From Sulfuricurvum sp. (GTDB taxonomy: Bacteria; Campylobacterota; Campylobacteria; Campylobacterales; Sulfurimonadaceae): a stretch of DNA of 64,000 nt. This document shows, in pieces, positions 118 to 60,167 of the stretch (position 1 is its first letter; every line of letters begins with the position of its first letter). The stretch spans positions 66,572-130,571 of the forward strand of contig JAGXHZ010000046.1 of assembly GCA_024635855.1 (NCBI GenBank). The letters are read 5' to 3'. The notes beneath the pieces are model-generated. The model was not told the DNA's origin and did no database searches. It saw only the letters and a program-made list of their open reading frames with translations. A program made the position numbers and the translations under genes.

Positions 118-2232
118 ATGCTGAAATTACGTGAAACAAAAACTTCTATCACGACCCTACTTGTCCTTATCATAGTTGCCTATTTATTTTCAATTTCAAT
201 GCGTTTAATATGGGTTGAAAATTTCAGTGCAATGCCACAGTTTCATTGGAATAATGAACTAATGATCAATACAAATGATGGATATTGGTTTGCAGAAGGG
301 GCACGTGATATTTTGCAAGAGCACCATGAAGAGAATGATTTATCCGGAGTTGAAACGCCCCTTGCTAAACTCACGGCTATTTTATCAAAAATTATTCCCG
401 TTAGCTTTGAGACTCTCATTCTTTATATGCCGTCATTTCTAGGATCATTAATCGTGATACCTCTCATATTAATTGGTCGTGCGTTAAATCAGACTACCAT
501 GGGATTTATTGCAGCACTCATAGGTTCTATTGCTCACAGCTACTACAACCGCACTATGACAGGGTACTATGATACCGACATGCTTAATATTGTTTTTCCT
601 GTTTTGGAGATGTATTCTCTGATTCTTGCTTTAACCCATCAGCGTAACCGCTATCTCCTTCCCATTACGCTTTCAATCGCTCTATATCAATGGTGGTATC
701 CACAGGCTTATGCGCTTGATACGGCCCTATTTCTTATGATACTAGGTTATGCACTCCTCTTTGATCGTAAAAATATTTATATCTATAAAATTGCCCTGTT
801 TATTCTTATCGGTATTTTATCTTTACCCCTCATAAGTAAACTTGGGTTAGCCCTTCTCATTTTTTCTTTTTTTCATTTTCAACGTGAACTTTCAACCAAA
901 CTTTTTTGGCCTATCTCTGGAATAGTTGTAGTAATCTACTTTTTTACAGGTGGAATTGATCCTATTTTAGCGCTATTAAAAGGATATGTTTTTAAGAGTA
1001 ATGAAGAGAATGTCATCACCAGTTCTTTACACTATTATAATGTTATGTCTACCGTAAGGGAGGCCGGAGAAATCCCTTTCACTATTTTTGCAGAGCGTAT
1101 TAGCGGGCACACGATCACATTTATATTTGCGAGTATCGGTTATCTTTTAGCACTGATTGCTTACCGTCCCCTATTGGTTACACTTCCACTAGTAGGCCTT
1201 GGCTTCATTGCGATGTTTGCAGGACTCCGCTTTACAATTTATGCAGTTCCTATGATGGCAATAGGATTAGGGTATTTATTATTATGGATTACCCAACGTA
1301 TTGAAAAAACATGGCTACAGTACCTTGCACTAAGTATTTTCACGATCGCAGCCATTTATCCAAACTATACCCATATTCGGGAGTATATGACCCCAACCGT
1401 TTTTACTGCTCAAGAAGTTGCTGTATTGGACGAGTTTCGTAAAGTTGCTTCTCGAGAAGACTATGTAGTTGCTTGGTGGGATTACGGCTATCCAATTCGT
1501 TACTATAGTGATGTTAAAACATGGATTGATGGAGGAAGACATACTGGCGATCTCAATTACCCTGCCGCATTTGTCTTAACTTCTAAAGATCAAACATCTG
1601 CAGCGCATATGATGCGATTGTACACCGAATATACGGAGTACAACTCCACAAGTATAAAAAATAGAGCAGGGAATGTTTTTGAAACTATGCTTGCAGAAGA
1701 AGAATTTAAAAACCCTAACGAATTTATAAATGCTATTGCTCTTCCCGAATACAAAATGCCAGAAAAAACACGCGACGTCTACCTCTATTTACCATTACGA
1801 ATGATGGAAATTTTCCCGACGGTATCTCTTTTCAGTAATCTTGATCTTACAGGTACAGAAACTTCTCCTTCTCATTTCTTTTATGTATCCAGAGGGATAC
1901 GTGACACTGGACAAACGATTGAACTTGGCCAAGGTATATCCATACAAAAAGCCAATAATACCCTTAAAATGGGTGGACAGCTTGCTCCTATTAAAGCTTT
2001 TTACCAAGTAGGGTACGATCCTCAACAAAAACTCAAAATTAATCGACAAATATTTGCATCAGAGGGTCTGACAGTCATTTTCATGGCTAGTTACGGCCAA
2101 TTTTTAGTCATTGATGATTACTATTTTAATTCTACTTACATACAAATGTTTGTATTTGAACAATATAATCCGAATTTTTTTCAACCCGTAGTTCTAAGCC
2201 CTATGGCCAAAATTTACAAACTAAAGATTTAA
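118..2232 (+). CDS. pglB: PglB-type oligosaccharyltransferase (STT3 family)
   Basis: Single-subunit oligosaccharyltransferase that moves a lipid-linked oligosaccharide to Asn in D/E-X-N-X-S/T sequons at the periplasmic face of the inner membrane. An N-terminal multi-pass domain of about 13 helices carries the acidic metal/catalytic motifs NDGY and YYDTDM. A soluble C-terminal domain has WWDYGYP near residue 453 and an MxxI-type motif (MMEI). The ending MAKIYKLKI closely matches Campylobacter PglB, as I remember it. An in-frame TTG lies at 58, but ATG 118 is preferred: it has GGAG upstream, gives about 704 aa (family about 713), starts like Campylobacter PglB (MLK), and avoids overlap with the preceding gene. 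pglF follows immediately. No other pgl genes are visible, so the rest of the locus probably lies to the left. Confidence 0.95.
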   Translation: MLKLRETKTSITTLLVLIIVAYLFSISMRLIWVENFSAMPQFHWNNELMINTNDGYWFAEGARDILQEHHEENDLSGVETPLAKLTAILSKIIPVSFETLILYMPSFLGSLIVIPLILIGRALNQTTMGFIAALIGSIAHSYYNRTMTGYYDTDMLNIVFPVLEMYSLILALTHQRNRYLLPITLSIALYQWWYPQAYALDTALFLMILGYALLFDRKNIYIYKIALFILIGILSLPLISKLGLALLIFSFFHFQRELSTKLFWPISGIVVVIYFFTGGIDPILALLKGYVFKSNEENVITSSLHYYNVMSTVREAGEIPFTIFAERISGHTITFIFASIGYLLALIAYRPLLVTLPLVGLGFIAMFAGLRFTIYAVPMMAIGLGYLLLWITQRIEKTWLQYLALSIFTIAAIYPNYTHIREYMTPTVFTAQEVAVLDEFRKVASREDYVVAWWDYGYPIRYYSDVKTWIDGGRHTGDLNYPAAFVLTSKDQTSAAHMMRLYTEYTEYNSTSIKNRAGNVFETMLAEEEFKNPNEFINAIALPEYKMPEKTRDVYLYLPLRMMEIFPTVSLFSNLDLTGTETSPSHFFYVSRGIRDTGQTIELGQGISIQKANNTLKMGGQLAPIKAFYQVGYDPQQKLKINRQIFASEGLTVIFMASYGQFLVIDDYYFNSTYIQMFVFEQYNPNFFQPVVLSPMAKIYKLKI

Positions 2233-2238
2233 TTGATA

Positions 2239-4041
2239 ATGCCGGTAAATAAAGAGCCTAAATGCAGCATACTCACTCCCAGTTATACAAAAAGATTGCT
2301 CTTTTTTCTGGTTGCTGATTTTTTATTATTTTTTATATCGCTCCATTTTGCTTACGCATTACGATTCGATTTTAGTATCCCTCCGGAATATGTAAGCCAT
2401 TTTTATGTTGTTTTCTTCACCTTGACATTCCTAAAATGGAGCAGTTTATATCTTTTAAACGTTTACCGTATTACCTGGCGCTATTTCAGTCTCCATAATG
2501 CAATACAAATCCTTATTGGACATATACTCGCTGTATCTCTTTTTTATCTTATTTTTTCAATGGAACCAAGTTTATTTGCCCCCGTACCGAGAAGTGTTAT
2601 TGCCATCGACTTTATACTCTCTTTGCTTCTTGTCGGCGGATTTCGTCTCTCCAAACGCATTATTCTAGAACAGCAAAATAAAAGTATCACCAAACCGATG
2701 CTAATTATCGGAAGCAACCACAAATCAGCCGCACTCATCAAAAGTTCTAAAAACGGCGATGTTCCTTATACGATACAAGCCATCATTGCATGGGAACCCT
2801 CTGATTTTCATTTGCACGGTTCAACCATTGATTCCATACAGGTTTATCGTAAAAGTCAATTGGAAAAAGTCTTTAAGTTGTTTAATATCAGCAGTGTCGC
2901 CATCACAATCGATCTTCCCCAAACGGAGCTTCGAAGCTTAATAGATCAACTTACGGCACATAATATCCATGATATTCACCACTTCGTTATTTTAGAAAAC
3001 AATACCTCTTCCCTACGGGAATTTTCTATCGAAGACCTTCTTGCTCGACATCCGAAAGATCTTGATTCCAAAACTATCGAAGCCTTTATTCGTGATAAAA
3101 ATGTCCTTATTACTGGGGCAGGGGGAAGTATCGGAAGTGAAATTTCGCTGCAATGTCATCGATTCGGAGCAAGGAATCTTATATTGATTGATCATAGTGA
3201 ATTCAATCTCTATCAAATCGGCGAAAAGATCCCCGATGCGGAGCTCCATCTGTGCAATATTATCGATTACGGATCGTTAGATCAAATCATGGAAAACAGC
3301 GCCCCGGATATCGTCATTCATGCCGCAGCCTATAAACATGTTCCTCTCTGCGAAGCGAACATGCAAACCGCCATTAAGAACAATGTTATTGGGAGCCGTA
3401 ATGTTATTGACAGTGCCATCGCCCATAATGTACAAAAAATTGTGATTATTTCCACCGACAAAGCCGTCCGTCCAACCAACGTTATGGGTGCGACGAAACG
3501 GACAGTGGAACTCTATGCCCAAAATGTCAATCCCCGTAACAGTGAAATCGTAGCGGTTCGATTTGGGAATGTTCTCGGTTCAAGCGGAAGTGTCATCCCT
3601 AAATTTAAAGCCCAGATTGAATCCGGAGGGCCGCTAACCCTGACCCACCCCGATATTACCCGTTATTTTATGCTGATCAATGAGGCGTGTCAGTTGGTCT
3701 TGCAAGCGGCTGCTATTGCACGCGGCGGTGAACTTTTTATTCTCGATATGGGAGAGAGTGTCAAAATCGCCGATTTGGCCGAGACTATGATTCGTCTTTA
3801 CGCAACAGAACCTATCGAAATCGTCTATACGGGCTTACGTCCTGGTGAGAAACTCTATGAAGAACTACTTATCGACGAGAGCGAGCAAAAAACAGCCTTT
3901 GAATCGATTATGATCGCCCGTTCAACCCTCTACGAAATTGATCGTTTAAATGAAGATATAGCTCTGTTAATCGACGCATTCGATCCACGATCAGCGCTAC
4001 GCCGCATTGTCCCTGAATATTCTGAACCCGTAGAATCTTAA
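2239..4041 (+). CDS. pglF: UDP-GlcNAc 4,6-dehydratase, PglF/CapD/FlaA1-like membrane form
   Basis: Makes the UDP-4-keto-6-deoxy sugar that starts synthesis of bacillosamine-type sugars. About four N-terminal transmembrane helices (residues ~20-140) are followed by a Rossmann-like linker domain and the catalytic short-chain dehydratase domain. GAGGSIGSE near residue 295 binds NAD. STDKAVRPTNVMGATK near 407-422 has the family's altered catalytic site, with Met where most SDR enzymes have Tyr. ATG 2239 is chosen over an in-frame TTG at 2233. It starts seven bases after the pglB stop, so the two are probably co-transcribed. In Campylobacter, PglF acts in the pathway that feeds PglB, and the adjacency supports the same role here. 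It ends 5 bp from a convergent gene with no obvious terminator. Confidence 0.88.
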   Translation: MPVNKEPKCSILTPSYTKRLLFFLVADFLLFFISLHFAYALRFDFSIPPEYVSHFYVVFFTLTFLKWSSLYLLNVYRITWRYFSLHNAIQILIGHILAVSLFYLIFSMEPSLFAPVPRSVIAIDFILSLLLVGGFRLSKRIILEQQNKSITKPMLIIGSNHKSAALIKSSKNGDVPYTIQAIIAWEPSDFHLHGSTIDSIQVYRKSQLEKVFKLFNISSVAITIDLPQTELRSLIDQLTAHNIHDIHHFVILENNTSSLREFSIEDLLARHPKDLDSKTIEAFIRDKNVLITGAGGSIGSEISLQCHRFGARNLILIDHSEFNLYQIGEKIPDAELHLCNIIDYGSLDQIMENSAPDIVIHAAAYKHVPLCEANMQTAIKNNVIGSRNVIDSAIAHNVQKIVIISTDKAVRPTNVMGATKRTVELYAQNVNPRNSEIVAVRFGNVLGSSGSVIPKFKAQIESGGPLTLTHPDITRYFMLINEACQLVLQAAAIARGGELFILDMGESVKIADLAETMIRLYATEPIEIVYTGLRPGEKLYEELLIDESEQKTAFESIMIARSTLYEIDRLNEDIALLIDAFDPRSALRRIVPEYSEPVES

Positions 4042-44279: not shown

Positions 44280-44741
44280 ATGCGTTCATTCACACTTGCC
44301 GCTGTATTATTTTTAGCTTCTAGCTTAAATGCTTTGGATTTCGGTTCACTCATGCAAAGCGTAACACCCGTTGCCCAAAGTGCAACACCTACGGTCGATG
44401 CCTCTTTGAGTTCTAATCCTCTTATCAAAAATCTCACTACTACACTTGGGGTCACTCCGACCCAAGCAATCGGCGGAACCGCGGCTATCATCAATGATGC
44501 CAAAGGAAATATGAAGCCTGCGGATTTTACCGAGCTTACCAAACAAATGCCTCAGGCCGGAACTTTACTCGGTGCGGCACCCTCAGGGATGCTAGCCCTT
44601 GGCAACGTAACATCCCAATTCTCTTTTTTAGGGATGGATGCTTCAATGATCACAAAATTTTCACCTTTGGTACTCCAATACCTCCAAAGCGGTACAACTC
44701 CGGGAATGGATAAAATCCTCGCCACCGCATTTGCTCAATAA
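44280..44741 (+). CDS. DUF2780-like secreted protein
   Basis: 153 aa with a signal peptide. The mature part, GVTPTQAIGGTAAIINDAKG and KQMPQAGTLLGAAPS, follows the DUF2780 pattern. Function unknown. AAGGAG precedes the ATG. The stop overlaps the start of mobA (TAATG). Confidence 0.8.
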   Translation: MRSFTLAAVLFLASSLNALDFGSLMQSVTPVAQSATPTVDASLSSNPLIKNLTTTLGVTPTQAIGGTAAIINDAKGNMKPADFTELTKQMPQAGTLLGAAPSGMLALGNVTSQFSFLGMDASMITKFSPLVLQYLQSGTTPGMDKILATAFAQ

Positions 44742-45322
44742 TGTTTTCTCTCTCTTGTGTTCTCTTTGCAGGTGGTAAAAGTTCTCGCATGGGGGAAGAT
44801 AAATCTCTCCTCCCTTTTGGCGGCTACACTACCCTCACAGAGTTTCAATATACGCGCTTAAAAAGGATTTTTAGTCGAGTCTGTATCTCGACAAAAAATC
44901 GGAATAAATTTGACTTTGACGGTGACTTTATCCTCGATCCCATCTCTGCCGACTTTGCACCGACAGCGGGGTTTGTAAGTGCGCTAAGAGCATTGGAAGA
45001 TGAGCGAATAATGGTGTTGAGTGTCGATACTCCGTTTGTGGATGAGAGAGTATTTCAGACCCTGATCGATGCCGATTCGCCAGAACTTGATGCGGTAATC
45101 GCCCGAACAAGCGAGGGGAACCACCCGATATGCGGTATATACCATCGCTCTTTATTGGAAGATTTTGAACGTATGTTAACTGATGGAGATCACCGCTTAG
45201 GGAAACTGCTCGCCTCTTCCCACACCCGCTTTGTCGATTTTACCGACGAAGCACCCTTTAGCAACCTCAACCATCCTCACGAATACCAAGAAGCACTCGA
45301 ACGTTTCACTGCTCGTCCATGA
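44741..45322 (+). CDS. mobA: Molybdenum cofactor guanylyltransferase
   Basis: 193 aa. LFAGGKSSRMGEDKSLLPFGG is the nucleotide-binding signature of MobA, which adds GMP to Mo-molybdopterin to give the bis-MGD cofactor used by DMSO-reductase-family enzymes. LSVDTPFVD is the metal-site region. Such an enzyme is encoded at 53823 in this window. Coupled by TAATG to the preceding gene and by 4 bp to the next. Confidence 0.9.
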   Translation: MFSLSCVLFAGGKSSRMGEDKSLLPFGGYTTLTEFQYTRLKRIFSRVCISTKNRNKFDFDGDFILDPISADFAPTAGFVSALRALEDERIMVLSVDTPFVDERVFQTLIDADSPELDAVIARTSEGNHPICGIYHRSLLEDFERMLTDGDHRLGKLLASSHTRFVDFTDEAPFSNLNHPHEYQEALERFTARP

Positions 45323-47539: not shown

Positions 47540-47545
47540 TATAAT
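47540..47545 (+). promoter_or_regulatory. -10 element of the moaC operon
   Basis: Perfect TATAAT 25 bp upstream of moaC, at the end of a 254-bp spacer with no other convincing gene. Confidence 0.5.
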
Positions 47546-47570
47546 AATGAAAATACTACACAATAGAGAA

Positions 47571-48059
47571 ATGATGAAGTTAACCCATCTCGATGAACGC
47601 GACCGTCCTAAAATGGTAGATGTTTCCGATAAAACGACCACCTCACGCATTGCGGTTGCCAGTGGACTCATTACGATGAGCCAAGCCGCCTTTGATGCGG
47701 TCATTACCCAAACCGCTAAAAAAGGGCCGGTGCTCCAAACCGCAGTTATTGCCGCAATCATGGGGACAAAAAAAACCAGTGATCTTATCCCGATGTGCCA
47801 TCCCCTTAATCTCAGCGGAGTAAACTGTGATATAGAGGAACTCCATGCTCTTCCGGGTTTTAAACTTACGGTCACGGCAAAGCTCAGTGGACAAACGGGT
47901 GTGGAGATGGAAGCCCTTACCGGAACCAGTATAGGATTGCTTACCATTTATGATATGCTCAAAGCTATTGATAAATCGATGGTGATAGGGCCTATTCAAC
48001 TTGAAACCAAATCAGGAGGCAAAAGTGGTGATTATCAACGAAGAAACGAAGAAGCTTGA
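47571..48059 (+). CDS. moaC: Cyclic pyranopterin monophosphate synthase
   Basis: 162 aa. Second half of the first Moco synthesis step, making cPMP. Conserved [21 protein letters not shown] (catalytic Cys/His), [12 protein letters not shown] and YDMLKAIDK are all present. ATG 47571 or 47574 is used; the longer frame to 47547 is unlikely. The tail of the gene overlaps the DUF493 gene. Confidence 0.95.
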
Positions 48060-49360: not shown

Positions 49361-50449
49361 CTACATATCCCGCGCTAACGTAAACATATTGGCGTTACTT
49401 TTCATAAAGCTCGCACAGCGATCACAGACGGGATCGCCCCCTTTATAAGGGTAAGGGCAGCGACACTCATGACACGTTACCATCTCATAATGAACCAGTT
49501 GTTCGGAGCGTTCATACGCAATACTTACCAAATCAAATCCCTCTTTAGCTGTGATCGCCTTAGGCTTACAAATATCCTCACAAATACCGCATCCGATACA
49601 TTTTCCCTGTGAGAAATATATCCCCTGTTTATCACTGGTCGGGAATAGTGCATCCGTAGGGCAAAACTGCGTACAGTCCCCGCAGTTGGTACAGGTATCA
49701 AAATTGATCTGTTTATTAAAAAATAGTGGAGTGCTTTCTGGAAATTGCGTTGTCTCCAACTCTGTAACCATCTCTTTGAGGGAGTTTTTAAGCAATATTC
49801 GCTTCAACGGCATCTTCTGATCCGGAAGTTTGTGATGTGCCGTTGTCATAGAAATATGATTTACCGAACCTTCGGAAAGAGACTCTTTTACTTTCTCAAA
49901 TCCCTTACGGAAAAGGGCACGGCGCCCCGATTCTTCCTCTTTCTCTTCAATGCTCTCAATCCTATGAGGGCTTTGAATCGTCTCTAAAAATCGGTTTGTC
50001 CCCTCAATTTTTTCACGAATTGAACCTTCCAATACTCCGTTTGTATTTAGAATACACCCTGCACAATGGCTCACATCACATGTAACATTCTTCCCGCTTC
50101 GCAAAGCCATTACCGCGAAATGTTCAACATCAAATACACCCAAACACGGAGTGGTTACTTTGCAGGATAGGATTGGGGTTTCCTCACTATGCTGATAGGT
50201 CGCGGCGTATCCATTAGAATCGAAGCTTTCTATCTCCAAAGCTTCGGTAGGACAACTTCCGATACACCCGGCACACTCGACACACTCATTCTCAAACAAA
50301 GTTAATTTGTTTCGTACAATATGAAATGCTCCCTTGGGGCAAATATCGATGCAAAGGGTGCAATCGTTATGGTAATACTCATTTCTAAGACAACGTGTCG
50401 CCGTATAACTAAAAAGATTGCTTTTTTGAACGAAATTGATATTACCCAT
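49361..50449 (-). CDS. Cytosolic multi-cluster 4Fe-4S ferredoxin with zinc ribbon
   Basis: About 362 aa from ATG 50449 (AAGGA 7 nt upstream). Four 4Fe-4S motifs, two at each end: CTLCIDICPKGAF, CVECAGCIGSCPTEA, CTNCGDCTQFCPTDA and CIGCGICEDICKPKA. A zinc-ribbon-like CHECRCPYPYKGGDPVCDRC follows. No signal sequence. Last gene of the molybdoenzyme operon and overlapping the TorD-like gene by 8 bp. It is the kind of accessory ferredoxin seen beside complex molybdoenzymes, perhaps giving electrons for cofactor insertion or maturation. Confidence 0.88.
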   Translation of the reverse strand: MGNINFVQKSNLFSYTATRCLRNEYYHNDCTLCIDICPKGAFHIVRNKLTLFENECVECAGCIGSCPTEALEIESFDSNGYAATYQHSEETPILSCKVTTPCLGVFDVEHFAVMALRSGKNVTCDVSHCAGCILNTNGVLEGSIREKIEGTNRFLETIQSPHRIESIEEKEEESGRRALFRKGFEKVKESLSEGSVNHISMTTAHHKLPDQKMPLKRILLKNSLKEMVTELETTQFPESTPLFFNKQINFDTCTNCGDCTQFCPTDALFPTSDKQGIYFSQGKCIGCGICEDICKPKAITAKEGFDLVSIAYERSEQLVHYEMVTCHECRCPYPYKGGDPVCDRCASFMKSNANMFTLARDM

Positions 50450-51011
50450 TTGCGGATCCTTGTACCAAATACTCATAATCTGCACTCAAAAATTCAACGA
50501 GAAAGTCACACATATCGCGATAGAACGGAGTGTCTGCCATACTCTTCATCCCCATCATATAAGGGATAACCCAAGGAAAAATATGTTGATCTAAAAATTC
50601 AAATTGTGACTTTTCTTCATTCCGGTAGACCAAGGTTTGCATAAAGGCCAATTCGATCCCCAAATGATCCGGTGCCATAATCTGTGTTTGATCCATATTA
50701 ACTTCGAATCCATGGGTAAAATAAAATGCCATAACAGGATTTTGTAGCCCCACAAGTGTTTCATTCTTAGCATCTAGAACAAATGATTCCACCGGTTGGG
50801 TATTGAGGATATACATTGAGGTATAGTCGGTATTGAGTTGATCATAGAGTGTTTCAATATCTGTTGCCAGTACCCACTCTTTTGTCTCTTCACCGATAAT
50901 CTCTAACAATTCCGTATTGCTTTTGAGATCATTGATAAAACGACGATCTGGGATATCACTCATAACACGAGATAAAAAAGCATAGATGTAGAGACGATAT
51001 TCATTATTCAT
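50442..51011 (-). CDS. TorD/DmsD-family molybdoenzyme chaperone
   Basis: 189 aa, all helical. EYRLYIYAFLSRVMSDIPD at the N-terminus, the YTSMYILN segment and APDHLGIELAFM in the middle are typical. Such proteins bind the Tat signal of a catalytic subunit and hold it for bis-MGD loading. Its client is surely the enzyme encoded upstream at 53823, in the same transcript. Two hairpins lie between this gene and the structural genes. Confidence 0.88.
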   Translation of the reverse strand: MNNEYRLYIYAFLSRVMSDIPDRRFINDLKSNTELLEIIGEETKEWVLATDIETLYDQLNTDYTSMYILNTQPVESFVLDAKNETLVGLQNPVMAFYFTHGFEVNMDQTQIMAPDHLGIELAFMQTLVYRNEEKSQFEFLDQHIFPWVIPYMMGMKSMADTPFYRDMCDFLVEFLSADYEYLVQGSANG

Positions 51012-51086
51012 TGGTAATCCTGAAAAAAAGTAAGGGATTGTGTCATATGAGGACTTTGAGACAGCAAAGTTTAGAGCATTAAGCTT

Positions 51087-51124
51087 CTAACCCAAAAGGG
51101 TTAGAGGGGTGTTTATAAACACCC
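51087..51124 (-). terminator. Double hairpin between structural and accessory genes of the molybdoenzyme operon
   Basis: Two perfect stem-loops: CTAACCC/GGGTTAG with a 4-nt loop (51087-51104), and an 18-bp palindrome GGGTGTTTATAAACACCC (51107-51124) that spans the stop codon of the small secreted protein gene. They could partly terminate or stabilise the transcript, so that the chaperone and ferredoxin are made in smaller amounts than the enzyme subunits. Confidence 0.55.
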
Positions 51125-51514
51125 TTTGAAGAACGATTTCTTCGGTGGAGGCGGAGATTTAAATTCCGTTGCCATAATCGTATTGGTCGCTTCATCAAGT
51201 GTACCGAGAACAACAACACCGTTTTTATTGATCCCTTCACGCATTTCTGCGAGTTTCAATTTCGTGGTATCGATTGTATACACTTTTCCCGTATTGTGTT
51301 GATAAAGGGCATACTTTGCCTCTTTTGTCGTCACCCCGGCTTCGGTTTTACGAAAACAGCCATCTGAACCGCACACATAGTTTTCCAAATAACAATCGGC
51401 AAATGCACCTTGAGCGGCACATCCAGGAGTAGTTAAAAGCCCTTCGAACTCTTCAGGTTCGTTAGCAAATGCACTGAATACCAATGCTGCACAAAGCAAT
51501 GCAACTTTTTTCAT
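51113..51514 (-). CDS. Small secreted Cys-rich subunit-like protein
   Basis: 133 aa with a signal peptide (cleavage near FANEP). Five Cys in the mature part, including PGCAAQGAFADCYLENYVCG, SDGCF and the terminal GCL. No family recognised. Coupled by a one-base TAATG overlap to the gamma-subunit gene, so it is probably a structural or assembly partner of the enzyme in the periplasm. Confidence 0.75.
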   Translation of the reverse strand: MKKVALLCAALVFSAFANEPEEFEGLLTTPGCAAQGAFADCYLENYVCGSDGCFRKTEAGVTTKEAKYALYQHNTGKVYTIDTTKLKLAEMREGINKNGVVVLGTLDEATNTIMATEFKSPPPPKKSFFKGCL

Positions 51515-52716
51515 TATTCTACCTCCGCTTTGAGAGATTTGAGATACGCTACGATATTATCGATAGTCTCTTTATCCAAGAAACTGTAATCGGTCATCGT
51601 AGAAACGCGTTTCCCTTTTTCAATATTGTACCACGGAGTATTAGCGTGCGCATTACGATTGTAACCTGGAACGACAACCGCAGATGGTTTTAAGATTGAT
51701 TCACGTAAGTATGCTGACGTTGAGTACCCGCCGATATTTTTCAATGAAGGAGCCATAAACGATTTTGCATCTGCCGCTTCCATTTGATGACACCCATTAC
51801 ATCCGTTTGTCATAGCCGCTTCTTTGCCTTTTACCACATCACCTTTAGTATCCGATGTCAATTCAGCAACCATAGCTGTCGTAGACTTTTGACCTTCAAG
51901 GTTGATAGCTACCCATGAACTTAGATTTTTCAATCCGTTACGCCCCATCGTTGAACCATCCCAAACTGCGATAGCAACTGGAACCGTTCCGTTTAAATTG
52001 ACATAAGCATCTTTAAGAGGACGAACCAAAGTTCCGCTCCAACCTGCAGGTCCATGAACCATAGCCCCATTGGATTTAACAGAGTTATCTTTCACTTCCG
52101 TAGTTGAGCGAAACCCTTCCGCTACGAAAACCTTTTCATAATCTGTTTTTGCTAATGATGCAACTTTCGCATCATATTCGGCTAATTCTTTACCAAACAC
52201 ACCTGTTTGTTGACGGTTGATTTGAGTAGAAACATCTTTATTTCCATTCGGTTCATATACTTTTGCAGTAGCTTTTTGGAGATGTACTACTACCGGACGT
52301 CCCTCAGAACCCATTCCGATATACGGCAAAGGTTGAGCTTTTTTCGTTGTTCCTGCAAACTGAACGGCAAATCCATCGGTATAGACATCACTGCTCATAC
52401 ACTGTTCAACGTCTTTCGTTTTATCAACCCATTTGACCATTACCGCAATATTTTTTCCATCGTGTAATGCACCGATTTGAGCTTTTTTCCCTTTAGCATT
52501 TGCGACAAGTTCATTTGCTTTTTTATCATTAAATTCAATCGATGTTTGAGGATAAAGAGTAACTGTTTCAAACTTTGCTTTTGACCAAAGCGTAGAATCT
52601 GCTTTAATGGTATCAAGATTATCAGTTACTTTTACCGCACTAATTGCAGGGTTAGCTGCCAAAGCCGCAGAAGCGGCAATCCCCAATGAAAGAATAGTAG
52701 TAAGAAGCTTTTTCAT
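51514..52716 (-). CDS. Gamma-type haem b subunit fused to cytochrome c (EbdC/SerC/DdhC-like)
   Basis: 400 aa. Signal peptide, then an ethylbenzene-dehydrogenase-family haem-b domain (~30-285). Its PYIGMGSEGRPV segment holds Met135, the likely axial haem ligand. The C-terminal domain (~295-400) is a mono-haem cytochrome c with CNGCH (306-310) and a later Met. The gamma subunits of selenate reductase, dimethylsulfide and ethylbenzene dehydrogenases lack a fused cytochrome c as far as I recall. The fusion suggests electrons pass straight to or from the cytochrome c pool. One-base overlaps join it to both neighbours. Confidence 0.85.
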   Translation of the reverse strand: MKKLLTTILSLGIAASAALAANPAISAVKVTDNLDTIKADSTLWSKAKFETVTLYPQTSIEFNDKKANELVANAKGKKAQIGALHDGKNIAVMVKWVDKTKDVEQCMSSDVYTDGFAVQFAGTTKKAQPLPYIGMGSEGRPVVVHLQKATAKVYEPNGNKDVSTQINRQQTGVFGKELAEYDAKVASLAKTDYEKVFVAEGFRSTTEVKDNSVKSNGAMVHGPAGWSGTLVRPLKDAYVNLNGTVPVAIAVWDGSTMGRNGLKNLSSWVAINLEGQKSTTAMVAELTSDTKGDVVKGKEAAMTNGCNGCHQMEAADAKSFMAPSLKNIGGYSTSAYLRESILKPSAVVVPGYNRNAHANTPWYNIEKGKRVSTMTDYSFLDKETIDNIVAYLKSLKAEVE

Positions 52717-53813
52717 TAGTGGTGCCCTCCTGCTTTTGTAAACTTGCCGGCGATATAACGGGTATCGACCGGAGCCAATGGATTACGTTTGTTCTCACGT
52801 GCAACTTGTTGATAGTAGTTATTGTCCAAACGGAACATATCAGAATGTTGGTATGCGATCAATAGATCCATAAGCTCACTTACACCCGTCTCTTTACGTT
52901 TTTTCATCTCTGCTTTAAGTGTTTTGATCGCATCGTGAACCGCTGGACCAAATAATTTTTCAAGTTCTTCAACCGGAAGACGAGTTGACCCCTCGATAAT
53001 TTTACCCTCAGCATCAAATTTCGCCGGAGATTCGGTCGGAGGAATATAATATACGTTTGGTTGTGTACCGTAATCAGAACGTAAACCGATAGCTACTTTG
53101 TACTTGTGTACCAATTTATGGACTTGTGACTCTTCATCATCTAAGAACCCTACAAAACGGATACGTCCGACACATTGTTGCGCACACGCCGGTGGAAGAC
53201 CTTGCTCGATACGTGGGAAACAAAGGATACATTTCTCTGATTTAGAGATTTTCGGATTGAAATAGATTTTTTTATAAGGACATCCCGCGATACAATAGCG
53301 ATACCCTTGACAACGATCCAAGTCAACCAAAACAACACCGTCTTCTTCACGTTTGAAGATTGCGTCACGCGGACACGCACTCAAACACCCCGGATTTGTA
53401 CAGTGGTTACAAATACGTGGAAGGTAGAAGAAATAGTTGTCTTGCGGAAAAACTCCCGCACCTTCATCCTCATCCCAGTTCGGTCCCCATGTCGGAGAAA
53501 CGTGCGGATGAAAACTATTACTGTCTTGTGATCCGCCCATTAATGATTCATAGTTGTAATCCCAAGGCACCCCATAATCGGCTTCTAGGTTAGGGATTAC
53601 ACCCTGTTGGAGGTCACCGGCAGCATCAAATCCGCCACCCAATTCCATCCAATTTTTTGGATAACCCGTACCTGGATAGGTCTCAACGTTATTCCAATAC
53701 ATATATTCACGACCGTTACGGTTCGTCCATTGCGTTTTACATGCTACGGTACATGTTTGGCACCCGATACATTTGTTCAGGTCCATTACCATTGCTAATT
53801 GTCTTTTAGACAT
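52716..53813 (-). CDS. Iron-sulfur beta subunit, NarH/DdhB-type
   Basis: 365 aa. Four cluster motifs: CIGCQTCTVACKT; CNHCTNPGCLSACPRDA; CQGYRYCIAGCPYKK; and CILCFPRIEQGLPPACAQQC. The CQGYRYC form is typical of type II DMSO-reductase-family beta subunits. MYWNNVETYPGTGYP near the start is a further family mark. No signal peptide: it is carried across by the Tat signal of the alpha subunit. Next gene overlaps by one base. Confidence 0.92.
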   Translation of the reverse strand: MSKRQLAMVMDLNKCIGCQTCTVACKTQWTNRNGREYMYWNNVETYPGTGYPKNWMELGGGFDAAGDLQQGVIPNLEADYGVPWDYNYESLMGGSQDSNSFHPHVSPTWGPNWDEDEGAGVFPQDNYFFYLPRICNHCTNPGCLSACPRDAIFKREEDGVVLVDLDRCQGYRYCIAGCPYKKIYFNPKISKSEKCILCFPRIEQGLPPACAQQCVGRIRFVGFLDDEESQVHKLVHKYKVAIGLRSDYGTQPNVYYIPPTESPAKFDAEGKIIEGSTRLPVEELEKLFGPAVHDAIKTLKAEMKKRKETGVSELMDLLIAYQHSDMFRLDNNYYQQVARENKRNPLAPVDTRYIAGKFTKAGGHH

Positions 53814-53822
53814 CTAAACCCC

Positions 53823-56735
53823 TTAATACTGTACGTCTTTTGCTTTTTCGTAATTCACGGCGCCATCATAAGCGTACTGATTACCGTCCCAAAGGCCACC
53901 GAATTTCAAGTGCCCCCATCCGTCTGCCATTTCAAGAAGGTTCAATGCCGTTGGTACAACTTCATTATGCCCTTTGTTTTTCAAATACATGTACGGTTCC
54001 CATCCATGCTCAAGAACCAATCCGTCTGCCGGAGCAGAAGAGGAGAGTTTTGCCATCGCATAGAATTCACCTAAAGCATTAAAGATACGGATTGTTTCAC
54101 CGTCTTTGATCCCTTTGGCTTCCGCTACGACACGGTTAATTTGGATCGCAGGAACACCGCGTTGGAGACGCAAAAGTGTGCGTGATGTTTTATAGTTCGA
54201 GTGGATTGACCAACGAGCATGCGGTGTCATAAATACGTACGGGTAGTCTTTTGACTGAGGACGAATTCCTTCCATACCGGTATTGGTTGCCGCACCCATT
54301 TTAATGTACATTTCATGGTCAACGTAGAATGTTTGACGTCCCGAAACCGTCTCAAGGCGTTCCATTTTATACAAATGGTCTTCATTTGAGTTAAATGGGC
54401 GGTCAGAATACAATGGAGATGATTTTGCCGCTTTTTCATTAATCAGCAAGAATCCGCCCACTTTGTACATTTTCTCCATTGTCCACGGCTCATACTGCTC
54501 ACATTTTTCCAGTGCCGCTTGAACGGCCATTTTATCGGTACCGAGATACACTTCACCTGCACCCTCAGACTCTTCATCCGTATTGGTGAACTCTTTGTGG
54601 AAAATAGTCAAATCATGGAAACCCGGTTTCGCGAATTTTGGATGATCTTTAACTTTTGCTTTAGAGATATTTTCAGGACGGTTTGCCAACTCTTCCATTT
54701 TTTTAGCAAGGAAGGTAAACATTGACCATTCATCCATCGACTCACCGATATTTTTGATGTTTGCAACCGGCTGAGCCAAGTTGGTAAAACGGTGATAACC
54801 CGGAGAAGTACGTAAGTCATACACTTCATAGTGTGATTTCGCAGGAAGAAGAATATCGGCAAATTGTGCCGCTTCAGACATACGATAATCGACATACGCA
54901 TAGAATTTTGTTTTATTCAAAAACGCTTTACGGTAATCAGACCCTTTATTACGACGGAACTTAGAGTCCGCAACAATAAGAGCACAATCAGGCTGCCACC
55001 ATGGTTTATTTACATTTCCATGCTTAGACGCTTGATTGACTTTATCGTTTTCACCTGATTTAAGCATTTCAGATAATACTGCCATATATTCATTTTTAGA
55101 CATCCCGTTTTGGGCACGTTTAACATCTTCATCACTGAAATATTTGTCAAATGTTTTCATCCCGTCGCCAAATACGAATTCACCGACGAACCCTGAACCG
55201 AAACGAGCGTTGTATTTGCCACTGAACCCGGATAATGCTCCAAGCCCCGAGAGGGTAAATTCATTTTCCGTGTTGATACCGCCGTATGGTCCCATACGTC
55301 CGGTAAGACCACAGATAGAGGCGATATTCCAAATTGTCATAACCCCGTTGAAATATTTATTCAACGAGAATCCGGTTGTAATCTCTACAACTTTAGGGAT
55401 AGCGATATCACGTGCGAGCTGACGCGTCGTATCCGGGTGAACACCCGTCACTTCTTGGATAGATTCAGGGCTAAATTTTGCTGCCGATTTTTTCAGCATT
55501 TCAAATACCGTTGTCACTTCACGTTTGTCTCCGTGCATATCGGTAATAGTCCATTTTCCTTCGAGTTCCGGAACGATACCGTGATCGTCAAGACGAAGTG
55601 ATTTTTCACTGCTCCCCTCCGTACCCGGCATTAAAGCAACTTTGCCGGTTGCTTTATTCATACAATAGAATTGTTCATTATATTTGTGATGATCTTCTTC
55701 ATTCGCTGCATGTTCCATGTCATTACGACGGATCATTTTTTGTGTTTTTACATCTACAAGGAACGGAAGATCGGTCAATGTTTTGACAAACTCAGGTTTA
55801 AAGAGTTTTTCATTCAAAATAACATTAATAACACCCATTGCAAGGATATTATCCGAACCTGCTTTGATCGGGATCCAAAGGTCAGCAGATTTTGCCGTCG
55901 CATTGAACTCAGGGGTAATAACGATGACTTTTGCTCCGTTGTATTTTCCTTCCCATACGAAGTGAGCATCCGGGATACGAGAAACCGATGGATTTCCTCC
56001 CCACATGACTGCTGTATCAACGTTATACATGAAATCCCACGTACACCCGAGGTTACCTTCACCGTACGCAATCGCCGCACCCGAGAACATATCCCCGAGG
56101 TATGATGATGGATAAATACGGATCGCACCGAGCTGTGTAGAAAAACGCAACGGCGCACCACGACGACCCTCGGTCAAAAGACCGGTTCCCGCGTGTACCA
56201 TGAGTTTATCCGGTCCGCGTTCAGGATCGGTCATACAATTGAAAATCTCTTGGCATACGCGCTCAGCCGCTTCATCCCAGCTAACACGTTTCCATTTACC
56301 TTCACCACGCTCACCGACACGTACCATTGGATAAAGGATACGATCTTTTTGGTACATTACTTGGGAGTGCTGAACCCCTTTATTACATCCGCGAGGATTA
56401 AAGTCAGGGATTTTCGCATTGATAATCGGATAACGCGCTGATTGGTTTTCACGGGTAACAACACCGTTATTTGACCAAACTTCCCATGCACAGTTACCTT
56501 GACAGTTTACACAGTGGTATGCAAAACCATGTTCCTCTTTTTTACCGTACGTGAATGAAAACTCGTTACGGTACATCTCTTCAGTATAGTTGGTATTTGG
56601 ATAATTTTCTTTTCCGTTCTCAACTGACATTACGTTGGTTTTAGCAAATAGTGAGCCTTGTGAAGCTACTAATGCTGCCGTCATCCCTGAAACTTTCAGG
56701 AAATCGCGGCGTTGATTGTTCATTACTTTTGTCAT
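53823..56735 (-). CDS. Type II DMSO-reductase-family molybdopterin catalytic subunit
   Basis: 970 aa, Tat signal NQRRDFLKVSG. The FS0 cluster motif is H74-x3-C78-x3-C82-x34-C117, the His-first form of type II enzymes (NarG, EbdA, SerA, DdhA). The likely Mo ligand is Asp234 (CTWDFMYN). AAGG is 8 nt before ATG 56735. Family members reduce nitrate, selenate or (per)chlorate, or oxidise dimethylsulfide or hydrocarbons. The substrate here cannot be assigned, but the secreted rhodanese gene 10 bp upstream favours a sulfur compound. The Tat signal and the gamma subunit show it is periplasmic. The enzyme probably forms an alpha-beta-gamma complex. Confidence 0.93.
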   Translation of the reverse strand: MTKVMNNQRRDFLKVSGMTAALVASQGSLFAKTNVMSVENGKENYPNTNYTEEMYRNEFSFTYGKKEEHGFAYHCVNCQGNCAWEVWSNNGVVTRENQSARYPIINAKIPDFNPRGCNKGVQHSQVMYQKDRILYPMVRVGERGEGKWKRVSWDEAAERVCQEIFNCMTDPERGPDKLMVHAGTGLLTEGRRGAPLRFSTQLGAIRIYPSSYLGDMFSGAAIAYGEGNLGCTWDFMYNVDTAVMWGGNPSVSRIPDAHFVWEGKYNGAKVIVITPEFNATAKSADLWIPIKAGSDNILAMGVINVILNEKLFKPEFVKTLTDLPFLVDVKTQKMIRRNDMEHAANEEDHHKYNEQFYCMNKATGKVALMPGTEGSSEKSLRLDDHGIVPELEGKWTITDMHGDKREVTTVFEMLKKSAAKFSPESIQEVTGVHPDTTRQLARDIAIPKVVEITTGFSLNKYFNGVMTIWNIASICGLTGRMGPYGGINTENEFTLSGLGALSGFSGKYNARFGSGFVGEFVFGDGMKTFDKYFSDEDVKRAQNGMSKNEYMAVLSEMLKSGENDKVNQASKHGNVNKPWWQPDCALIVADSKFRRNKGSDYRKAFLNKTKFYAYVDYRMSEAAQFADILLPAKSHYEVYDLRTSPGYHRFTNLAQPVANIKNIGESMDEWSMFTFLAKKMEELANRPENISKAKVKDHPKFAKPGFHDLTIFHKEFTNTDEESEGAGEVYLGTDKMAVQAALEKCEQYEPWTMEKMYKVGGFLLINEKAAKSSPLYSDRPFNSNEDHLYKMERLETVSGRQTFYVDHEMYIKMGAATNTGMEGIRPQSKDYPYVFMTPHARWSIHSNYKTSRTLLRLQRGVPAIQINRVVAEAKGIKDGETIRIFNALGEFYAMAKLSSSAPADGLVLEHGWEPYMYLKNKGHNEVVPTALNLLEMADGWGHLKFGGLWDGNQYAYDGAVNYEKAKDVQY

Positions 56736-56745
56736 AGTCTTAGCC

Positions 56746-57867
56746 TTATCGTTTAATCGGAAGGTTCATATCGTTACCCCAAACATCCCAGCTTCCTGTG
56801 AAGACTTTGACGTTTTTGTAACCCAACAATTGAAGCGCCGTAATATGTTCCGAACTTCGTCCCGCGCCTACATGGCAATATGCGTAAATGGTTTTATCCG
56901 GAGTAACTCCGTAAGCATCATACACTTTTTGAATTTCAGCTGCCGACTTGAAAGAGAGTTTTTTATCGGCATCGGAGATTTGGCTCCACTCGATAAAGGT
57001 TGATCCCGGTACATGTCCGCCGCGTGCAACATTATCCATTTTACGTTCACCGACGATCTCAGCGATACCGCGAGAATCGATAATGACGTATTTGGATTTT
57101 TTACCGTTTTTAAGGATATCTTCCATTGCGTGTTTTACTTCATTTTTGTCCGCGATTACATTCCATTTGATTTTTTTAGGATCAATTTTATATTTTTTCG
57201 CTTTTACAACCTCATCCCCTTTTATAACAAGGAGACGTTTTTCAACTTCCGCCATTTTCGCTTGAAGTGCTTTTGCATCTTCAGATGCTTTTTTAATTGC
57301 TGTATCCAGAGCCGCTTTATCCGCACCCTCTTTTTTCAGTGCTTCTTTCGAATCTTTTTCTATTTTCTTAGCAGCTTTAAGCGCTTTATTTAATGTATCG
57401 TACTCTTTTTGAGCCGGATCCGCTGCCATCATAGCCGCACGTCCGCCGTTAAGTACTTTTACATTTTTATGACCGTAACTGTCAAAAAATGAATATACAC
57501 CCGTTGCATTAGGCCCTTTAAAGTCATCGTATGCGATAACCATCATGTCATTACTGATCCCTTTTTTGCCGATCATCTGCTCAGCGTCATCAACACAGCG
57601 GTACAACGGGGCACAGTGCATCTCTCCATCGATTTCCGAATGGTGAAGGTGGTGAGCGTACATCTCTACCGAACCTTTAATATGACCAAGTTTATAAATA
57701 TCTTCGTTATCACCCGATACGAACATCACTTTTGGATTACCGATAAGCTTGACCGCTTCTTCGGCAGAAATAAGAATACTATTATCCTTATACCCATCGG
57801 CTGCCATTAATACGGTCGCTGCCGACAGTGATGCCGCAACACATAGTGTCTTTAGCAATCTGTTCAT
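56746..57867 (-). CDS. Secreted tandem-rhodanese sulfurtransferase with coiled-coil insertion
   Basis: 373 aa from ATG 57867 (AAGGAG 5 nt upstream). Signal peptide, first rhodanese domain (~28-150) in which the active Cys appears replaced by Asp (AYDDFKG), a Lys/Ala/Glu-rich coiled coil (~155-225), and a second rhodanese domain with active Cys331 (AYCHVGAGRSSE). Sulfurtransferases carry sulfane sulfur as a Cys persulfide. As first gene of the molybdoenzyme operon it may present or accept sulfur for that enzyme. The coiled coil could hold it to a partner. Confidence 0.88.
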   Translation of the reverse strand: MNRLLKTLCVAASLSAATVLMAADGYKDNSILISAEEAVKLIGNPKVMFVSGDNEDIYKLGHIKGSVEMYAHHLHHSEIDGEMHCAPLYRCVDDAEQMIGKKGISNDMMVIAYDDFKGPNATGVYSFFDSYGHKNVKVLNGGRAAMMAADPAQKEYDTLNKALKAAKKIEKDSKEALKKEGADKAALDTAIKKASEDAKALQAKMAEVEKRLLVIKGDEVVKAKKYKIDPKKIKWNVIADKNEVKHAMEDILKNGKKSKYVIIDSRGIAEIVGERKMDNVARGGHVPGSTFIEWSQISDADKKLSFKSAAEIQKVYDAYGVTPDKTIYAYCHVGAGRSSEHITALQLLGYKNVKVFTGSWDVWGNDMNLPIKR

Positions 57868-57933: not shown

Positions 57934-58160
57934 GGGGTGAGACTCTTAATAAACGGTAAATATCTTTTTCTTATACACAAAAAGATTACAATATGTTACA
58001 TTCTTATCACAATTTTGCGACAAAGCATGATTAGACGTTATTTTACGTTTTCTTATACTACTCACTCTGTTTTTACACTTATACACTATAACTAATACTT
58101 ACATTTTAATCACTTTTTGATAGTATGACGATTATTTTTATCACAAAAAAAAGGGAGCTT

Positions 58161-58766
58161 ATGCATACCGAAACCATCAACCATGCGATCATGCAATCCG
58201 ATACAACAGCGCTTATTGAATTATTAGAAGATAAAAGCCTTCCTATTGAAGAGGTCAAATCAATTTATGAAGCCTTTAAAAGTGATAAATTACTTGTCGG
58301 ACAAGTCGCAATGAATCTCTCATTACGAACATCTGTCTATGAGCGTGAGAAAGAATACAGCCCAATTATGGTTGAATTACTTATTGACATCGCAAGTAAT
58401 CCAGTCGATATGGGAGCACGTTGGGCCGTTGCTAAAAATCCTCATACACCGATCGAAGTACTCGCTCACCTCTCAGCCGATCCAATTAATCTCGTAAGAG
58501 CCTTAGTCGCTGCCAACCCCTCAACTCCAAGTGACGTATTGGAAAAGTTCTTTAGCGATGAGAAAATCGTCCGTGACGGACTCTCCGGCAATCCCAATAC
58601 ACCTGCTAAATTATTAAAAATATTATGTGATGACAACGATAAAATGGTTCGTATGCGTTTAGCTGAAAACCGTGCAGCACCCAAAGAAATTATCACTGTA
58701 TTAACAAATGATAATGATCCCGACGTCAGTAAGGCTGCCCTTGCCAATTTGGGAGCACGTGGATGA
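58161..58766 (+). CDS. LRV (leucine-rich variant) repeat protein
   Basis: 202 aa from ATG 58161 (AAGGGAG upstream); an earlier frame from 58125 is unlikely. After an N-terminal helical part come repeated units of about 24 residues, such as ARWAVAKNPHTPIEVLAHLS, RALVAANPSTPSDVLEKF and MRLAENRAAPKEIITVL, the LRV pattern. LRV proteins are best known beside nif genes, but no nif gene is here. Overlaps the next gene by 4 bp. Confidence 0.85.
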   Translation: MHTETINHAIMQSDTTALIELLEDKSLPIEEVKSIYEAFKSDKLLVGQVAMNLSLRTSVYEREKEYSPIMVELLIDIASNPVDMGARWAVAKNPHTPIEVLAHLSADPINLVRALVAANPSTPSDVLEKFFSDEKIVRDGLSGNPNTPAKLLKILCDDNDKMVRMRLAENRAAPKEIITVLTNDNDPDVSKAALANLGARG

Positions 58767-59137
58767 AAAAACACCATTTTGAAGAACGCAGTCAATTTAT
58801 GACTCTCGAAAATCATTTTTTAAATACCTTTTTTTCAGGTCTTTATCTGAGCGCTGCTGATTTTATTTCTATCGGCAACGCCAATGGATTAAACCTCCGG
58901 ATGCACTCACGTGAAATGCTTATCAAAGATTTACTCAATGAATCCAATAAAATCGGCACCCTTAAAGATGTCATCACATCGCTCAATACTTTGATTGACG
59001 AGCGTATCAGTGTATGCCATCGACTTAGCCTTGAATATCCCCTTGCCCGTATTCCCCTAGCCAAACTTGCACAAAAAGCCAATGGGACAAAGGCATTATT
59101 AGCCCGTGAAGCGAGAGGAAATCCGTATGAACACTAA
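58763..59137 (+). CDS. Unknown small helical protein
   Basis: 124 aa, soluble, no signal. Not recognised. It overlaps the LRV gene by 4 bp and mrp by 11 bp, so the three form one translation-coupled unit. A link to Fe-S cluster delivery is suggested by position alone. Confidence 0.75.
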   Translation: MKKHHFEERSQFMTLENHFLNTFFSGLYLSAADFISIGNANGLNLRMHSREMLIKDLLNESNKIGTLKDVITSLNTLIDERISVCHRLSLEYPLARIPLAKLAQKANGTKALLAREARGNPYEH

Positions 59138-60167
59138 AGAGTTGCAAGATGCACTAAATGCCCTCGCCTATCCAGGTCTTAGCCGAAATCTCGGGGAACT
59201 AAAACTCATTTCGGAAGTCAAAGTAACAGATGGAGATGCGAAAATTGAGCTCCTTACCGTCAGTGATGATTCATATCTCACGGTAAAATCAGCAATTGAA
59301 GCGGCTTTGGGGGAACAATTCTCACGTCTAAATATCACCAAAAAAGCTCAAGTTCAAAAAGATACAAACTACGGTAACAGTTCCAACCCCAACAACCGCG
59401 CACCCTATGCTGCCAATGTCATAGCAGTAACGAGCGGCAAAGGGGGAGTCGGTAAAAGTACCGTCAGTGTCAATCTCGCCATTGCTCTTGCGCAAAAAGG
59501 GTATCGAGTCGGGATTTTAGATGCCGATGTTTACGGCCCTAATGTGCCGCGCCTCACCAATACCGATTTGGAAAAAATCCGCTGGAGTGATGATAATAAA
59601 ATCATCCCAAGTGAAAACTATGGGATCAAGATCATGAGTGTCGCACTCACGACTCCGACCTCAGACACCCCTCTTGTATGGCGCTCATCCGTTGCTGTCT
59701 CGGCACTCATACAATTTCTTGAAGATGTAGAGTGGGGAGAGCTTGACTTTCTCGTCATCGATATGCCTCCGGGAACCGGTGATATCCAACTCACTATGGC
59801 ACAAGAGCTCCCTATCACGGCAGGAGTGATTGTAACCACTCCACAACTTGTAGCGAGTGATGACGTCAGCCGTGCCATCCGAATGTTTCAAGACATTCAT
59901 GTCCCCATGGCAGGATTAGTAGAGAATATGAGCTATTTTATCGCTCCCGATACCGGAACCCGTTATGATATTTTCGGAAGCGGCGGTGGAGCACGACTGG
60001 CTGCACGTTATAGCATTCCCTTATTAGGCCAAATTCCTTTAAACATGGATATTCGAGAAGGTTCGGATAACGGTGAACCGCCGGTTGTTTTAGGAAGCGA
60101 TGAATTGAAAAGTTATTATAAAGAGATTGTTGAAAATATGCTCAAAGCGGTGAAGTTTAAGATTTAG
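59127..60167 (+). CDS. mrp: Mrp/ApbC/NBP35-family P-loop ATPase (Fe-S carrier), CxxC missing
   Basis: 346 aa from ATG 59127 (AGAGGA upstream). N-terminal DUF59/MIP18-like domain (residues 1-90), then the P-loop domain with deviant Walker A GKGGVGKST. VIDMPPGTGDIQLT and the later GLVENMSYF are typical. In most Mrp proteins the next residues hold CxxC, which binds the shared 4Fe-4S cluster; here they are A-P-D-T. It therefore may not carry a cluster the usual way. The 3' end faces a palindromic repeat and the convergent disrupted lipoprotein gene. Confidence 0.93.
   Translation: MNTKELQDALNALAYPGLSRNLGELKLISEVKVTDGDAKIELLTVSDDSYLTVKSAIEAALGEQFSRLNITKKAQVQKDTNYGNSSNPNNRAPYAANVIAVTSGKGGVGKSTVSVNLAIALAQKGYRVGILDADVYGPNVPRLTNTDLEKIRWSDDNKIIPSENYGIKIMSVALTTPTSDTPLVWRSSVAVSALIQFLEDVEWGELDFLVIDMPPGTGDIQLTMAQELPITAGVIVTTPQLVASDDVSRAIRMFQDIHVPMAGLVENMSYFIAPDTGTRYDIFGSGGGARLAARYSIPLLGQIPLNMDIREGSDNGEPPVVLGSDELKSYYKEIVENMLKAVKFKI

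Follow-up and report, generated by a model that had tools for sequence, protein, structure and literature searches.

A rhodanese-led molybdoenzyme operon in Sulfuricurvum and other Campylobacterota: a possible counterpart of SoxCD in sulfane-sulfur oxidation

What does a periplasmic molybdoenzyme do when its operon is led by a secreted rhodanese? The question is raised by a 64,000-nucleotide stretch of Sulfuricurvum sp. DNA (assembly GCA_024635855.1, contig JAGXHZ010000046.1, positions 66,572 to 130,571 of the forward strand; hereafter the window, whose numbering is used throughout), in which seven co-directional genes run on the minus strand from the rhodanese (57867) to a multi-cluster ferredoxin (49361). 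It touches on a wider problem, namely that several sulfur-oxidising Campylobacterota are without SoxCD (Sulfuricurvum, PMC4288042, and the Nitratiruptor-type genome G003) or without any Sox (Thiovulum), and that in strains without soxCD the oxidation of thiosulfate is commonly taken to stop at sulfur (PMC12403661). Our answer, which from the sequences we hold to have an even chance of being right, is that the product of the operon is a sulfane-sulfur dehydrogenase of the periplasm, doing the work of SoxCD without being homologous to it. A fuller version seems to us plausible at somewhat less than even chances: that this is a second sulfane dehydrogenase, of an origin independent of SoxCD, in which a DMSO-reductase-type molybdenum enzyme is combined with a dedicated, undescribed OB-fold-like carrier and with a loading rhodanese whose seven-residue loop is like that of protein tyrosine phosphatases, and that it completes sulfur oxidation in Campylobacterota with a truncated Sox pathway and, in Thiovulum, supplies the missing route for oxidising S(0).

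The seven genes lie where a preliminary description, made from the letters and open reading frames of the window, had placed them, and their identities hold as well. They are, in order, a secreted tandem rhodanese of 373 residues (56746..57867), an alpha subunit of 970 residues that is a type II-like molybdopterin oxidoreductase (53823..56735), an iron-sulfur beta subunit of 365 residues (52716..53813), a gamma subunit of 400 residues in which an EB_dh haem b domain is fused to a cytochrome c (51514..52716), a small secreted cysteine protein of 133 residues (51113..51514), a TorD-type chaperone recognised by Pfam and NCBIfam (50442..51011), and the multi-cluster ferredoxin of 374 residues (49361..50485), which has Pfam matches and in which no export signal was seen. 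An exact-word scan, with one genome taken per species, gave 71 loci, from which distant relatives are missing because exact words were used. Their titles name Campylobacterota taxa, apart from those of L013 and L019, which say no more than bacterium, and the nearest matches are Sulfuricurvum records, with alpha identities of up to 97 percent. A rhodanese match is found in 64 of the 64 loci whose contig reaches that gene (the other 7 contigs start inside alpha), such that the linkage persists in related genomes, and the small cysteine protein is found in 57 of 57 (in the remaining 14 the contig stops short of it). Because of these two counts, the arrangement is beyond chance. At E 1e-4, TorD has no match in L056, L061 and L070, and the ferredoxin, the least constant member, has none in L056, L058, L061 and L070, though the sequence continues there. 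In other words, the gene set is nearly invariant, with TorD and the ferredoxin a little less constant than the rest. Alpha is found in two or more pieces in genomes G037, G042, G151 and G256, and likewise in loci L057 and L069, which reflects either assembly errors or decay of the gene. The alignments used below consist of complete rows, longer than 80 percent of the window protein, together with the window protein itself; besides the latter they hold 56 of 57 small cysteine proteins, 60 of 64 rhodaneses, 61 of 71 alphas, 63 of 67 betas, 57 of 62 gammas, 53 of 53 TorD proteins and 42 of 52 ferredoxins.

The rhodanese carries two Pfam Rhodanese stretches and, judged by eye, a Sec-type signal. 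Its AlphaFold2 model (pLDDT 89) has Thermus rhodanese 1uar as the nearest solved structure (Foldseek E 1.1e-16), and both the fold and the catalytic cysteine that define the superfamily are present. This cysteine, Cys331, stands in the motif C-[HQM]-V-G-[ATS]-G-R in 61 of 61 rows (CHVGAGR, residues 331-337, 56857..56877 on the minus strand), an active-site loop of seven residues where the solved relatives shown have six (CRIAER and CRIGER). Comparable seven-residue loops occur in Cdc25 and tyrosine phosphatases, and by analogy the loop could bind an oxyanion. In the first rhodanese domain, H72, H75, C85 and C91 are also invariant (61 of 61 rows), and the patch that they form resembles a metal or cofactor site.

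The small cysteine protein has no Pfam or NCBIfam match, the SoxY domain included. It is modelled as an OB-fold-like domain ending in PPPPxKSFFKGCL; in the window this C-terminal arm reads PPPPKKSFFKGCL (51116..51154, minus strand), with Cys132 as the penultimate residue. Cys132 is present in 56 of 57 rows, the 57th (L066) being masked at that position, and the terminus SFFKGCL is found in 120 of 120 homologues among the matches listed. The arm is nearly invariant although the alignment of the whole protein averages 44 percent column identity, while four further cysteines (C32, C41, C48 and C53) are invariant as well. The mean pLDDT of the arm is 76 for residues 121-130 and 57 for residues 131-133. 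A cysteine on a C-terminal arm is the trait of SoxY carriers; the resemblance is one of working and not of membership, as the terminus is FFKGCL and not GGCGG. By this analogy, we regard the protein as a candidate sulfur carrier with a cysteine-tipped arm, recalling SoxY and DsrC. In L012, L037, L063 and L069 it seems to start with a lipobox (e.g. LSGC), and it may, on this sequence feature, be tethered to the membrane in some species and free in others.

Is the operon distributed as one would expect of a counterpart of SoxCD? At limits of E 1e-60 for alpha and E 0.001 for the small-protein profile, a survey of 397 Campylobacterota genomes found alpha in 54, one of them (G295) with a PcrA-like enzyme of 33 percent identity, and the small protein in 53, one copy each. 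These are the same 53 genomes in which alpha is at least 69 percent identical, and at these limits none of the other genomes has alpha or the arm protein, apart from the PcrA-like alpha of G295. Above its cut-off, soxC is present in 93 of the 397, namely in 3 of the 53 operon genomes as against 90 of the 344 others (an overlap of 3 where 12.4 would be expected, P 0.0003). The 91 genomes with soxB above cut-off, 20 of which carry the operon and from which G205, with a partial soxB under the cut-off, is excluded, divide into 17 with the operon and no soxC, 3 with both, 70 with soxC and no operon, and 1 with neither (G288). The operon is thus found in 17 of the 18 soxB genomes without soxC, and soxC in 70 of the 71 that have soxB but no operon (Fisher 1.7e-14, with related genomes treated as independent). 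Among soxB genomes, then, operon and soxC are nearly complementary. On a quick tree of one RpoB stretch from all 91 genomes, made as a check on kinship, the operon label changes 8 times and the soxC label 8 times. G182, with soxC and no operon, stands inside an operon-genome clade that includes Sulfuricurvum-like genomes, and G002, with the operon and no soxC, stands inside a clade of soxC genomes. In six independent pairs on the starred branches, soxC goes in the opposite direction to the operon in 4-5 and in the same direction in 0 (in 1 in two of 200 pairings).

What is more, Sox genes are found close to the operon. In six genomes (G003, G019, G035, G042, G263 and G377) soxB and alpha share a strand and are 6.5-15 kb apart. 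In the Nitratiruptor locus L045, soxB (the soxB match of G003) and the gene of a SoxA-type cytochrome are found at 979-3514, 5.4 kb upstream of the rhodanese (about 5-8 kb), from which they are separated by a porin-like open reading frame and a divergent gene unit described below. The preliminary description had read the rhodanese as a pointer to sulfane sulfur, polysulfide or thiosulfate; this pointer is strengthened by the near-complementarity with soxC in soxB genomes and by the soxA and soxB genes some 5 kb upstream in Nitratiruptor, although the substrate itself can be named only conditionally. A gene for a NapA-like molybdoenzyme lies downstream of the operon in L045 (20671-22901).

To what kind of enzyme does alpha belong? 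It bears a Tat-type signal, RRDFLK, judged by eye, and its H74, C78, C82 and C117 align with the FS0 ligands of its relatives, as the preliminary description had it, giving the one-histidine, three-cysteine FS0 of the type II family. The molybdenum ligand, placed earlier at Asp234, is instead D215, which aligns with D170 of PcrA and D223 of EbdA and is found in 18 of 18 rows of alpha's own clade, as is proper to type II enzymes. The beta subunit scores above the cut-off of its NCBIfam type II family (TIGR03478, 516.8 bits against 480.7), and 15 of its cysteines recur in at least 63 of the 64 rows, presumably as the ligands of three [4Fe-4S] clusters and one [3Fe-4S] cluster, in keeping with the four clusters first described. 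In gamma, next to the EB_dh domain, the CxxCH of a cytochrome c is formed by C306, C309 and H310, and these residues together with M135, K148, K263 and M374 are present in 58 of 58 rows. The families listed for alpha (24) and for gamma (4) do not include the SoxC family, TIGR04555. In a midpoint-rooted IQ-TREE phylogeny of 32 rows, which includes no SerA or NxrA and in which the own clade consists of 18 rows (15 from the 62-row alpha set, window included, and 3 listed homologues), the Campylobacterota alphas form one clade with support of 100/100 and a stem of 1.43 changes per site. Their sister group (98/94) is made of DdhA-like, i.e. dimethylsulfide-dehydrogenase-like, rows, labelled by source names and a Rhodovulum sulfidophilum record and not by a characterised sequence, and they are not nested among them. 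ClrA-like rows lie outside this pair, while PcrA, NarG and a haloarchaeal enzyme lie beyond the midpoint root; nor is alpha nested with ClrA, PcrA, EbdA or NarG in this tree, where EbdA and NarG have long branches. Alpha therefore stands, as had been supposed, outside the clades of known substrate that the tree contains. As for the PcrA-like alpha of G295 (L117, G295:C42), at 33 percent identity to that of the window, it groups in the tree with perchlorate reductase, and its host also has soxB and soxC.

This placement bears on the reading that annotation pipelines and earlier papers imply, namely that the operon encodes a nitrate, selenate or chlorate reductase. Some source names are indeed those of nitrate reductase or nitrite oxidoreductase alpha, and Nar is listed for Sulfuricurvum and Thiovulum (PMC4288042, PMC9938260). 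However, alpha reaches 221.6 bits where the NarG cut-off is 1084, NarG, PcrA and ClrA fall elsewhere in the SerA-less tree, there is no NarI-type protein among the seven, nitrate could already be served by NapA, which is above cut-off in 41 of the 53 operon genomes, and such a reductase would need neither a rhodanese nor a cysteine-armed partner. We thus hold this reading to be highly improbable. It has been made in print: for the Movile strain, Candidatus Thiovulum stygium, PMC9938260 describes an operon of six genes, among them a rhodanese gene, narG and narH, a gene related to cytochrome c and one left unannotated; its authors interpreted this operon in 2022 as a nitrate reductase with a rhodanese. 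Judged by the description alone, this is very probably the same operon, and it is the only description of such an operon found in the PMC literature searched, as far as the excerpts go. The earlier statement that none of the familiar type II enzymes is described with a rhodanese in its operon needs to be set beside this one case, in which two of the genes were taken for narG and narH.

Several findings weigh against a counterpart of SoxCD, some from the sequences and some from physiology. To start with, alpha and gamma score below the cut-offs of the families in which they score best (TIGR03479, 734.7 bits against 984.75, and TIGR03477, 89.2 against 169.85), such that both are divergent members. 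Three genomes carry both soxC and the operon, and the kinship-aware sign test has a median p of 0.0625, which is above 0.05. Finally, 33 of the 53 carriers are without soxB and 32 are without SoxY above cut-off (SoxY is present in 21); therefore, partnership with Sox cannot be the role of the operon in most of its hosts if the assemblies are complete, and some of the absences may stem from assemblies that are not. Could the enzyme oxidise persulfide or polysulfide beside sulfide:quinone reductase, protecting the periplasm or supplying thiosulfate or sulfite, with no link to Sox and with the soxC pattern as an accident of kinship? The carriers without soxB speak for this, as does the presence of alpha in a record of Malaciobacter mytili (P0118), which is a heterotroph. 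Yet an accident of kinship sits badly with an operon in all but one of the soxB genomes that lack soxC, spread as these are over several branches of the RpoB tree, and we consider this account unlikely.

The physiological record is mixed. Sulfuricurvum kujiense, RIFRC-1 and the PC08-66 bin are reported to be without soxCD (PMC4288042), and S. kujiense made no S(0) from thiosulfate alone within 5 weeks, the peaks in its medium being possibly thiosulfate and sulfate (excerpt of PMC6890823). That said, the same excerpt allows for a zero-valent component in the thiosulfate medium, and a mine-water study ascribes complete Sox to its Sulfuricurvum (PMC10086054). Thiovulum, according to PMC9938260, yielded no sox, dsrAB or aprAB genes, nor any genes that would carry sulfur on to sulfate by a known mechanism; the transcripts given there are the only expression data found that possibly concern the operon. 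Nitrosophilus offers a pair of cultured strains. N. kaiyonis (G263), described in a paper title as hydrogen-sulfur- and thiosulfate-oxidizing, has the operon and soxB and no soxC, and its small protein is 100 percent identical to P0211. N. alvini (G063) also has the operon, with an alpha 100 percent identical to P0074 over 958 residues, and has no soxB match and no soxC above cut-off; its excerpted description gives H2 as the only donor, though thiosulfate, S(0) and sulfide were tried, and names thiosulfate and S(0) among the electron acceptors. Three further species, which may or may not carry the operon, are tabulated as having H2 as their sole donor, namely Nitratiruptor labii, N. tergarcus and Hydrogenimonas thermophila. 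In this pair, growth on sulfur follows soxB; therefore, the operon alone is insufficient for it. Such a pattern fits a helper of Sox, but a reductive role, too.

Would the operon, then, work in reverse, with electrons from cytochrome c being used in the periplasm to reduce polysulfide, thiosulfate or polythionate, and with the rhodanese delivering the sulfur as Sud does for Psr in Wolinella? N. alvini is just the kind of host one would expect, and PMC7952632 cites a polysulfide-sulfur transferase of Wolinella that is related to rhodaneses. Such a reductase would nonetheless leave the soxC pattern and the soxAB neighbours unexplained. Gamma is of a cytochrome type, and no quinol-oxidising membrane anchor was seen among the seven genes, while the reduction of sulfur, as textbooks have it, requires low-potential electrons; moreover, the nearest rows in the alpha tree are those of dimethylsulfide-dehydrogenase-like enzymes. 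Taking both sides together, we find the reverse direction rather unlikely.

The surroundings of the operon raise one more alternative. On the plus strand, a divergent unit begins with a leucine-rich-repeat-variant (LRV) protein (58125..58766, with relatives aligning from 58161) and continues with a 124-residue protein without a Pfam match (58763..59137) and a Mrp/NUBPL-type iron-sulfur P-loop NTPase (59106..60167). Of the 42 loci that extend 3.5 kb or more upstream, every one has at least one of these genes, and 31 have all three by the open-reading-frame rule used. On the other side, moaC (47547..48059, plus strand; homologues match 47541-48041) and mobA (about 44741..45316, plus strand, by homologue match) lie near the operon, as had been pointed out; in the 42 loci with at least 3.5 kb there, moaC is downstream of the operon in 34 and mobA in 20. 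Since a haloarchaeal type II cluster (L073) is likewise annotated with a HEAT-repeat protein and a P-loop NTPase, the pair may, by analogy, assist the maturation of type II enzymes in general. With so many helper genes for molybdenum cofactor and iron-sulfur clusters gathered here, one could argue that the rhodanese serves cofactor or iron-sulfur assembly and that the small protein, whose OB-like fold is shared with the haem chaperone CcmE, is a subunit with a part in assembly or structure, and that the substrate has nothing to do with sulfur. The rhodanese bears an export signal, though, whereas molybdenum cofactor insertion is, by textbook knowledge, cytoplasmic, and no rhodanese is annotated within 6 kb of two other type II clusters, those of chlorate reductase and of the haloarchaeal enzyme. 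A role in assembly is, in our judgement, very unlikely.

How, then, does the proposed sulfane-sulfur dehydrogenase compare with known systems? It would share with SoxCD acting on SoxY the reaction, the periplasm, a molybdenum enzyme with a cytochrome c and a substrate held on a C-terminal cysteine arm, and it occupies the same place in soxB genomes. SoxC, however, has the sulfite oxidase fold known from textbooks, whereas alpha is of the DMSO-reductase type with an iron-sulfur chain and a haem b, and the candidate carrier, unlike SoxY with its GGCGG end, is OB-fold-like and ends in FFKGCL. The plan of alpha, beta, gamma and chaperone, the haem b gamma and oxidation at sulfur recall DdhABC(D) as textbooks describe it, which is also the nearest clade; the operon here adds a gamma cytochrome c, a rhodanese, an arm protein and a ferredoxin, and its alpha has a long separate stem. 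The plasmid-borne chlorate reductase of Ideonella dechloratans likewise has genes for alpha, beta, gamma and chaperone together, but at 33 percent identity it falls on an outside branch and has no rhodanese annotated adjacent to it. Sud and Psr of Wolinella also pair a periplasmic rhodanese with a molybdenum enzyme of the same superfamily; Sud, on the other hand, is single-domain, and Psr is a quinol-fed membrane reductase without type II features.

Following this comparison, one can outline how a sulfane-sulfur dehydrogenase of this kind might work. The rhodanese, given its fold and invariant cysteine, would pick up sulfane sulfur from polysulfide, from thiosulfate or from sulfane bound to SoxYZ, hold it as a persulfide on Cys331 and hand it over to Cys132, next to last on the proline-hinged arm of the OB-fold-like protein, the arm whose invariance was described above. 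The arm would then enter the molybdenum site of alpha, where oxygens derived from water would be added to the terminal sulfur, giving a sulfonate and then sulfite or sulfate. Electrons, if the architecture of the family is a guide, would pass from FS0 to the clusters of beta, then to the haem b of gamma and its cytochrome c domain, and from there probably by a soluble cytochrome c to an oxidase or a nitrate chain. In hosts with soxABXYZ the operon would supply the missing SoxCD step, while hosts that have no Sox would gain from it an accessory route starting from polysulfide; TorD, MoaC, MobA, Mrp and LRV would provide maturation support.

The claim is directly testable in cultured strains, and, if true, its consequences would reach beyond this locus. 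Predictions of the end product of sulfur oxidation that are made from the presence of soxCD would be wrong for groups such as those named at the outset, and genes now labelled as nitrate reductase alpha and beta would need renaming. Finally, the cysteine-armed protein would be a new type of protein-bound sulfur carrier, to be placed beside SoxYZ, DsrC, TusA and LbpA.

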